Shown here: positions 14,650-17,600 of the stretch, in pieces
Numbering within the stretch: position 1 is the stretch's first letter
How the letters are laid out: each line of letters starts with the position of its first letter
Assembly: GCA_964007475.1 (NCBI GenBank)
Contig: OZ023273.1
Coordinates: 9,747,922 to 9,811,921 of the forward strand
Source of the DNA: Hybos culiciformis
Taxonomy: Eukaryota; Arthropoda; Insecta; Diptera; Hybotidae
Reading direction: 5' to 3'
DNA length: 64,000 bases
Position numbers and translations under genes: made by a program
The notes under the pieces: model-generated
What the model saw: only the letters and a program-made list of their open reading frames with translations
Databases searched by the model: none
Told to the model about the DNA's origin: nothing

Positions 14650-17600
14650 TCAAGATGATGTTGAAGCTTCTGTTGCAGGATTTTGATGAGGTGTGAAGTT
14701 TATGACTTCCTTAAAAACTAATTGTTTCCAATCTTCAACAGCAAGATCCATGTCTTCAAAACTTTGATCGTATGGTGGTGAAATCGGTTCATCATTGGGA
14801 TCGGCATATTTTTCCATATACCTGCAGACAAATTTACATTACAATTAAAAAAAAATATTTTTTTCTGATAATACTTACGAATGAGCTAAAGCCTGTTCTG
14901 CGGTAATCCTTTTTTCAGAATCCAATTCCAACATTTTCTCGAGTAAATCAATAGCCAGGGGATTCGCACCTTTAAAAACATCTTTAAAATTTCTTCTTTG
15001 CATTGCTGGTAATGATTTAATATAATTTCGGGCCTGAAATAAAAATTTTTGGTATCTAATAAATTATTAAAAAAAAACAAAAACAATTATCACTTCGAAA
15101 AAATTAAATTTTCTAACATTCTTTAACTAGCGAATTAAGAGCAAAGCTTCAAATTAAAATATTTTATTTAACGAAATTAAAAAAAAAAAATTTAAGCATG
15201 CTATTTAATTCAATTTATTGATACAATTTTTTAATAGTTCATCTTTTTTTTTTTTTAATTTATGTAACATACCTCCTCACTAGTAATTTTTTGCATTAAA
15301 TCTGGTTCAGGCGTACCACATAATACCAATATTCGTGTTAAATGATCCAAGTCTTTAATTTTTCGCAGTTACGAAAATTATAATTAATTTGTCGACGAAG
15401 GAGTTGTTAATTTATAAGTTAAGGTTAAATTATATTTTTTAAATAGGTATGTATCTTTAAAATTGTTTATCAAAAAAAAAAATAATTGCAAAAAATCCAA
15501 AAATAATAATAAAACAAGCTATATTTTGTTATGCATATTATATATATTGTAAATAAATCTAACGATTTATTTGGATCACATAGGTATTAGCTTAATTGTT
15601 TGCAATAGGTAAAAGGGTTAAGCAACATTTTCATTTGATGATTCTTTGTTATTTTTTGAAAATAAAATCTTGTTTACGAAAATAACTAAAAAACTATCCT
15701 TCAAAAAGTTTTTCTTTGTAAAAAAATAAAGTTCTCTCTTTGAAAGGAAAACCCTTATTAATTAAATAAAAATATTGTTATTTAGCACCTTATCCAAAAA
15801 AAAAAAACGAACTGTATAGTTAAGTTCAAAAATTTTATGTAACTCAAAAACGTTTTTATATAAAAAAAAAAATAACAAATTTGTTAACATTAACTTACAC
15901 TTTCTGACGAAATTTTTTTCATAAAATCATCCGCAGGTGTTCCCAAAATTTCCATTATCAAATTTAACTGATGAATATCTTTATACGTAGAATTGTATAA
16001 TTAAGGTATATAAATTACATGCAAATTAATTTAAAAAAAAATAAATAAAATAAAAATATTCAAATTTCAGTTCGTATTTTGAAGCCAAATGATTATTTTT
16101 TTCAACTAGCTTTAATCTACGAACCGAATATAAAACAAATTAATAAAAATTAAAACTAAGAAAAATAAAAATATAAAGGACGGTGAAAATAGAAAACATT
16201 TAGAATATATAATTTTTTGTGTTATTAAATATTTGAGTATCTTTTTCTTATCTAACTGATCATTATCAAAATTTTAATTTTATAATTTTCTCTCGTCACA
16301 GGGAGCGATTTACAAATTACACCTAATCTATTTTCTTACGAAGAAATGAGGAACAAAATCGTTGTTTATCCGGAATATAATCTAAATTATCAAGGATGCC
16401 ACATTGATAACGATTAAACGTTTCAAATGTTCAGTACTTATTTATTTTTGGTAATTTACTGCTATCACAAAAAAAGTCTTTTTAAATTAAAATATTTTAA
16501 AAGGATACGGTCAGATCCAGGAAATAGTGTTCTTCCAGTAAGTAGTTCAGCCATAATACAGCCAACGCTAGAAAAAAAAATATTGGTTATTTTTGATAAA
16601 AAAAAAACTTTAAATATTAATTAATTTTTAATAATTTCATATAATTCTACCTCCAAATATCAACTGTTTGATTGTAATGCATCCAGTTTAACATAATCTA
16701 AATATAATAAAAATATTATTAATTTTGTGTTCCCCAAATGTTCAATGAATTATATAATTACCTCAGGAGCTCTATACCATCTTGTCGCTACATAACCTGT
16801 CATTTCATTTTCAGTTGGACGAGCTAAGCCAAAATCAAGAATTCTCAATTCACAATCTTCATTTACCGCAATATTCGACGGCTTCAAATCCTAAAAAAAA
16901 AAAGAACCAATTTAAAAAATTAAAAATTAAATTATTTAATTAAAAATTAGAAATAATTATTAAGAATAAATATTTATGTAATAAATTACTTACGCGATGT
17001 ATTATTCCAGCCGAATGAATATATTTTAAACCTCGTAAAATTTGATATACCAAAAATTGAACATGATCATCAGATAGTTTTTGAGTTCTAATAATATTAT
17101 TTAAATCAGCTCCCATTAAATGTGTCACCAAATAAACTTGGCCAAAATTATCTATTGAATTGGAATTTGGATTTGAGAATACATCCAGTAATCCAATAAC
17201 ATTTTCATGATTCATGTGTTTTAACATTCTGAGCTCACGATAAGTTCTTTTAGCATGCACTGCTGATTGAAATGGTCTGGCCAATTTTTTAACCGCAACT
17301 TTTATATTATTTTTTGTATCATTTGCTGAACTAAAAAACAATAAAAAAATTGTATTATTTAATATCTTTTAATAAAAGAATGCAATTATATCACTATCGG
17401 CTTCTTCTGTTAAAAAAATTCTGTTTGTAATCGATCTTTTAAAAGGGCTTCATTAGTAAAAATTTAAAAAAATTGAAATCGAAAATAATTTCTTTGATTT
17501 CGAATCGATAAATATTTCAGAAAATTCCATTATTTCAATAATTTTTCGATATACATTATGTATCTATTGAAAAAAGAAAACATTTAATTTTAAATATTTC

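Follow-up and report, generated by a model that had tools for sequence, protein, structure and literature searches.

The window, a 64,000-nucleotide stretch of DNA from Hybos culiciformis, contains a complete p38 MAP kinase gene on the minus strand (19382-14650) with 10 coding exons from ATG to stop. The product carries a full kinase domain (Pfam Pkinase, E 6.5e-67) and the TGY activation motif of the p38 family, and its best solved-structure matches are MAPK14 (E 3.5e-182). The closest full-length proteins among those collected are from Condylostylus longicornis (86.9%) and Hermetia illucens (86.7%), and this similarity points to a brachyceran fly as the probable source. The exons and splice signals on which the following argument depends are listed below.

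19382-19327, minus strand: p38 exon 1
18987-18940, minus strand: p38 exon 2
17330-16994, minus strand: p38 exon 3
16890-16762, minus strand: p38 exon 4
16697-16651, minus strand: p38 exon 5
16567-16509, minus strand: p38 exon 6, constitutive, the last before the choice; ends GGA TCT GAC C
16499-16508, minus strand: shared U12-type donor GTATCCTTTT, after exon 6
16000-16008, minus strand: U12-like branch motif TACCTTAAT for exon A, 8.0 bits; branch A at 16001, 22 nt before the intron end
15978-15899, minus strand: alternative exon A (exon 7), 80 bp, 27 residues; donor GTAAGT
15368-15376, minus strand: U12-like branch motif TTTCGTAAC for exon B, 6.4 bits; branch A at 15369, 16 nt before the intron end
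15352-15273, minus strand: alternative exon B (exon 8), 80 bp, 27 residues; donor GTATGT
15033-14879, minus strand: p38 exon 9, constitutive; U2-type acceptor TTTCAG, best U12 branch score -3.5
14821-14650, minus strand: p38 exon 10

The p38 gene has neighbours on both sides. A gene at 9618-12533 on the plus strand, with a further open stretch to 13043, encodes GTP_EFTU, EFTU_D2, EFG_III and EFG_IV domains and converges on p38; by sequence it resembles EFTUD2/Snu114, a spliceosomal GTPase. On the other side, a Rad21-like cohesin subunit gene (21419-24198, plus strand) lies head to head with p38. Its Rad21_Rec8_N domain spans 21419-21730 (E 1.2e-39), and no Pfam match was found for the later Rad21-like stretch at 23470-24198. 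Open stretches at 7531-7821 (minus strand) and 19853-20487 (both strands) resemble each other and share peptide runs such as SEWFT; they probably represent copies of a repetitive or transposable element, and one of them sits just upstream of the p38 start. A trypsin-like serine protease fragment lies at 63498-63911 on the minus strand (Pfam Trypsin, E 2.4e-15). No RNA family was found in the 64-kb window by Rfam at the gathering threshold.

Exons A and B are adjacent, homologous and equal in length and phase, as is expected of a tandem-duplicated exon. Each starts mid-codon, ends at a codon boundary and can be read through in the required frame, whereas stops interrupt both other frames; the splice-site dinucleotides of both exons are intact. 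In the spliced gene model, the isoform with A and the isoform with B are both open, encode 360 amino acids and differ solely at residues 226-252. The exons are identical at 12 of 27 residues and at 46 of 80 bases, in agreement with the approximately 40% protein identity given in an earlier note on this DNA, which had described two 80-bp exons of the same phase at these residues. Their similarity score is 55, compared with 23 for the best unrelated stretch of the 64-kb window, and no third copy was found across that window. Inclusion of both exons shifts the frame in the model, as that note had also stated, and leads to a stop after 256 residues; omission of both likewise shifts the frame, with a stop after 230 residues.

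The donor that serves both exons is distinct from all others in the gene. The site after exon 6, at 16508 (GTATCCTTT), matches RTATCCTTT, the pattern of a U12-type 5' site, and contains GTATCCTT, which occurs nowhere else on the two strands of the window. Approximately 1.3 occurrences in the window are expected under an order-2 model, but the chance of this 9-mer at any given GT is approximately 1e-4. Its U12 score is 15.4 bits, by far the strongest of the gene, whereas the other eight donors score -2.1 to -14.6. As a U2 site (-3..+6) it scores 0.0, the lowest of the nine, with the others at 3.8-12.1. By a 6-base U2 matrix, however, it scores 2.5 and is second lowest, after the exon 5 donor (1.1), which counts against its being the weakest U2 site of the gene. 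All U12 and U2 matrices are approximations, and the bit scores are approximate. At that resolution, the U12-matrix scoring proposed beforehand identifies the donor as clearly U12, which bears out its description as a perfect U12 site, and places the acceptors of A and B above the other seven.

U12 introns have a branch consensus near TTCCTTRAC, approximately 8-20 nt from the 3' site, with an optimum spacing of approximately 10-16 nt. The acceptors of A and B both carry U12-like branch motifs, as had been claimed, scoring 8.0 and 6.4 bits, while the other seven p38 acceptors score 0 or less when the branch A is placed 8-24 nt from the intron end and at most 2.7 when that range is widened to 6-45 nt. 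Among the 5002 AG sites on both strands of the window, 53 score at least 8.0 and 103 at least 6.4, so that both acceptors would score this high jointly in approximately 2 of 10,000 cases if treated as independent, with thresholds chosen after the values were known. The two motifs are good but not perfect. Exon A has the better motif and keeps CCTTAA, but its spacing of 22 nt is beyond the optimum; exon B has the better spacing, 16 nt, but two mismatches to the consensus. A better U12 branch core, CCTTAAC, is located at 15418-15424 on the minus strand, where its branch A would lie 66 nt upstream of the B acceptor, too far for normal use. The acceptors of A and B end in AAG, and the other seven end in TAG or CAG. 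The further claim that both lack a pyrimidine tract carries little weight: pyrimidine content at -22..-4 is low at both (11 of 19 for A, 8 of 19 for B), but exons 2, 9 and 10 have acceptors with 11, 11 and 10 of 19, and A does not stand out from these. The exits of A (GTAAGT) and B (GTATGT) are both U2, as described earlier, and the A donor has a U12 score of -10.3.

How could this arrangement enforce a choice? We propose that the tandem-duplicated exons A and B are alternatives that are reached through one minor-spliceosome intron and left through major-spliceosome introns. The minor spliceosome would join exon 6 to A or B, removing the upstream intron, and the major spliceosome would then remove the intron after the chosen exon, to the one U2-type acceptor of exon 9. 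An A-to-B junction would combine a U2 donor with a U12 acceptor, and skipping of both exons would combine the U12 donor with the U2 acceptor of exon 9; both events are predicted to be disfavoured because each requires a mixed, incompatible U2/U12 intron. The A-B intron indeed pairs a U2 donor (GTAAGT) with an acceptor that bears a U12-like branch motif (6.4). Solely 6-A-9 and 6-B-9 would be compatible, so exactly one exon would be included, and any leaked mRNAs with both or neither exon would shift frame and then probably be destroyed by nonsense-mediated decay. Such a lock would require no special evolution, given that duplication of an exon between a U12 and a U2 intron, flanks included, would create it at once. 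U2/U12 incompatibility is thus the best explanation for exclusive use of A and B and, on the strength of splice-site anatomy, a probable one. The lock anatomy proposed in the earlier note is present, and its interpretation is strengthened by the comparison across arthropods and vertebrates that follows. Two points go beyond that note: the same logic blocks the skipping of both exons, and the layout is widespread.

Protein searches with exon B (best 120 of 144 matches) and exon A (best 120 of 262 matches) yielded 212 distinct proteins. Separate A-type and B-type proteins occur within the same species in Harpegnathos, Neodiprion, Bicyclus, Homalodisca and Graphocephala among the matches listed. 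Both exons are joined in single models in 11 arthropod proteins detected by pattern and in Gryllus bimaculatus (P0081), detected by eye; A precedes B in all 12 (P0003, P0004, P0005, P0006, P0007, P0008, P0021, P0063, P0071, P0081, P0122 and P0209), and some contain intron read-through. These joined models, among them those of the ostracod Darwinula and the sea spider Nymphon, probably arise from gene finders that ignore U12 introns. The in-frame A-B joined models of Parnassius, Iphiclides and Colias were considered as real double inclusion and judged to be annotation artefacts, in which S-V-N would fit splicing at a GT that lies four bases inside the A donor. The proposed search of other insect p38 genes for a second 80-bp exon type therefore finds the A/B pair across insects and traces it to the ostracod and the sea spider. 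Among the matches listed, Ceratitis, Lucilia, Glossina and Drosophila have the A type alone, and an ancient pair would be easily missed because the Drosophila p38 proteins listed are of this kind. Drosophila melanogaster has lost many U12 introns (PMC2831892).

What is the age of the U12 donor? Public models that read on into the intron are informative, given that in the codon phase after exon 6 C|GTATCCTT spells D-R-I-L, whereas a U2 donor GTRAGT would spell R-K or R-E. Among the 212 proteins, those of Trichomalopsis and Spodoptera read R-I-L and were found with queries lacking R-I-L; P0081, the third of the 212 that leaves the normal exon, departs otherwise. A third protein search used the window's own read-through as its query (best 120 of 1264 matches). 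Among 321 proteins, 58 read D-R-I-L, 17 end at R-I and one reads R-I-F, while four have R followed by something else, one departs otherwise, five are without the motif and 235 continue as the normal exon; the R-I-L in the third query biases the R-I-L proportion upward and makes it meaningless, and it is the breadth of taxa that is informative. That breadth covers beetles (Callosobruchus, Dendroctonus, Henosepilachna), a louse (Polyplax), a stick insect (Timema poppense), ants (Cyphomyrmex and two Trachymyrmex), a chalcid wasp (Trichomalopsis), a moth (Spodoptera) and an isopod (Armadillidium), together with fishes, a bird entry and mammals. Because R-I-L read-through spans insects, an isopod, fish, bird and mammals, the U12 donor at the end of exon 6 appears to be old, and it is shown indirectly, through translated models, to be older than insects.

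The donor type is not universal, and it does not depend on the second exon. P0268 (R-K-Y) and P0287 (R-E-F) look as if they have U2 donors at the end of exon 6, and the U12 type has therefore been lost or converted, or was never present, in some lineages. Beetles show R-I-L with A-type exons alone among the matches listed, and thus the U12 intron is independent of the second exon. In a weak shuffling test of retained introns, P0215 is compatible with TTCCTTAAC placed 11 nt ahead of exon A, with 10 of 200 shuffles as good; for the branch motif of P0288, 49 of 200 shuffles were as good, and P0287 had a low score that 167 of 200 shuffles equalled and looks U2-like.

Read-throughs at the far side of the exons can be interpreted in the same manner. 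Of the 12 read-throughs that begin with V after exon A or the corresponding vertebrate exon, 9 cannot be GTATCCTT (V-S-I, V-S-K, V-S-T twice, V-S-S, V-N three times and V-T), and the other three are ambiguous (V-S-L twice and V-S-F). After exon B or its counterpart, none of the three can be GTATCCTT (V-R twice and V-N). Judged from these translations, most readable exon exits are not U12. V-S after exon A had been considered as proof of GTRAGT and was dropped, as GTATCC spells V-S too and the third residue had to rule GTATCC out. Non-V read-throughs after A (for example, P0003, P0004, P0071, P0209, P0294 and P0311) were left out as spliced elsewhere or unreadable. The fish model of Caranx (P0234) holds R-I-L, the first exon, a V-S-S exit and the second exon in one protein.

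A group of public models bypasses both exons. By script, 20 of the 58 R-I-L models, and P0308 in addition, contain neither exon and run straight to exon 9; within this class a remnant of an exon survives in P0250, and inspection by eye adds P0251 and P0300. Those that bear species names are vertebrates. The neither-exon models seem to leave via other donors inside the intron, so the rule is unbroken, and if they are real they would be a way round the lock. These models slightly lowered our confidence in the lock explanation.

Other mechanisms could in principle keep A and B apart. Trans-acting factors may choose between the two exons, with decay removing mRNAs that contain both or neither, given that the exon length of 80 bp is not divisible by three; the U12 intron would then be an inherited relic. 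The early stops that follow both frameshifts agree with this account, as do the beetles that read R-I-L and have A-type exons alone among the matches listed, and a choice between A and B still requires some factor. However, both acceptors keep U12-like branch motifs above all others, a feature that the lock needs and decay does not, and we regard regulation plus decay as an unlikely source of exclusivity. Control by RNA structure is known for other exon clusters (PMC6071210). Competing structures between a docking site and selectors are nevertheless considered very unlikely to enforce the A/B choice. The strongest pairings among the three introns were matched by Markov-resampled sequence (13, 13, 7 and 17 of 20 resamples were as strong); at one species and 40-nt tiles, this comparison speaks against such structures but does not decide the matter.

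Two simpler accounts fare worse against the anatomy of the gene. The idea that A or B is a dead copy or never used is hardly credible when both exons are open in the required frame with intact splice dinucleotides and when B, which belongs to a conserved insect type, has a close B-type counterpart in Hermetia isoform X2. Steric exclusion, by which the A-B intron would be too short to splice, can be discounted almost entirely: this intron is 546 bp long and exceeds four constitutive introns of 57-103 bp in the same gene, and no evidence for steric exclusion was found at A/B. The U2/U12 lock remains the reading that we prefer.

Vertebrate MAPK14 (p38 alpha) has alternative exons named CSBP1 and CSBP2. 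Like A and B, they lie at the same codon position behind an R-I-L read-through, seen in fish, a bird entry and mammals, and have non-U12 exits; in one fish model that holds both, the order of exon types is as in the fly. The vertebrate and fly exon sequences have diverged, and common ancestry is favoured. Proteins of both types are also found in lamprey (P0305 and P0089). Trees of the 26 exon residues were built from 60 rows under LG and from 57 rows, without three of them, under a mixture model. In the 60-row tree, the 23 arthropod A rows that had been chosen, sea spider and ostracod among them, form one group (support 100/99), and the A type therefore goes back at least to the ancestor shared by these taxa; the B rows group together weakly (27/57). 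A split of A plus CSBP2-type from B plus CSBP1-type receives 97/74 (LG, 60 rows) and 96/94 (mixture, 57 rows), in trees that have a small number of columns, 26, and in which the CSBP1 group is a meeting point of long branches. Constraints that place A with B (p 0.15 and 0.147), CSBP1 with CSBP2 (p 0.176 and 0.0516) or B with CSBP2 (p 0.419, 60-row analysis alone) are not rejected.

Did the pair arise once or twice? Convergence between arthropods and vertebrates is possible for A/B, and convergent exon duplication in these two groups has been reported for other genes (PMC9741552). One bilaterian origin of the pair is favoured by the comparison of exon types. More specifically, the exon pair and its U12 gate may have been inherited as one unit from the arthropod-vertebrate ancestor, with A as the CSBP2-type, B as the CSBP1-type, the same order and the same donor, a tentative reading that falls somewhat short of likely. 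If this single-ancestor reading is true, few known pairs of mutually exclusive exons would be as old as that of p38. The p38 pair thus offers a test of one old event against repeated invention in human and arthropod genes, in a field where wider studies have been called for (PMC5740500).

The gate may also bear on p38 function. Active p38 makes U6atac more stable in human cells and increases the splicing of minor introns (PMC3728624), and a preprint proposes a loop in which MAPK14 itself is U12-regulated (PMC12637451). It is a matter of speculation that the U12 gate links p38 activity back to the exon choice, or the output, of the kinase itself. In broader terms, the p38 case suggests that splice-site type, rather than a regulator, can force an either-or choice and that an exon between a minor and a major intron can become exclusive upon duplication; the lock also suggests a reason for the very long retention of one minor intron.

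The JNK exon pair encodes nearly the same kinase region as p38 exons A and B. Minor introns occur in 11 of 14 MAPK genes, p38 included (PMC12332006), and variants of mouse Mapk14 use exon 10 and exon 11 as alternatives (PMC1431733); passages of a review on MAPK splice forms name only Exip and Mxi2 for p38 alpha (PMC8699841). U12-gated exon choice in p38 was not found in the titles and abstract openings of the literature searched, nor was the MAPK14 minor intron described as an exon-choice gate in the passages retrieved. Five human U2/U12-incompatible exon clusters, 0.79% of clusters, have been reported with the same proposed mechanism as here (PMC5740500); the main text of that report names neither MAPK14 nor MAPK8, the five clusters being placed in an appendix figure. 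Exons 11 and 11a of TMEM87A/B are mutually exclusive around a minor intron (PMC6717393, PMC8329584), in a JNK-like orientation and in a gene unrelated to p38.

The closest parallel is provided by the JNK genes MAPK8 and MAPK9, in which mixed U2/U12 sites lead to exclusive use of exons 6a/6b (7a/7b) (PMC3584512, PMC8329584, PMC6717393). The earlier note's statement that U2/U12 incompatibility has been proposed for JNK exclusivity is confirmed by passages of two of these papers (PMC3584512, PMC8329584). JNK and the present p38 gene are both MAP kinase genes with two alternative exons and a mixed U2/U12 logic. The JNK exons are entered through two U2-type 3' sites and left through two U12-type 5' sites (PMC8329584), whereas U2 entry with U12 exit is not what this p38 gene has; its U12 entry and U2 exit form the mirror image. 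We propose that the p38 pair represents mixed-spliceosome exclusive exons in the mirror orientation of JNK, old within arthropods and perhaps as old as bilaterians.
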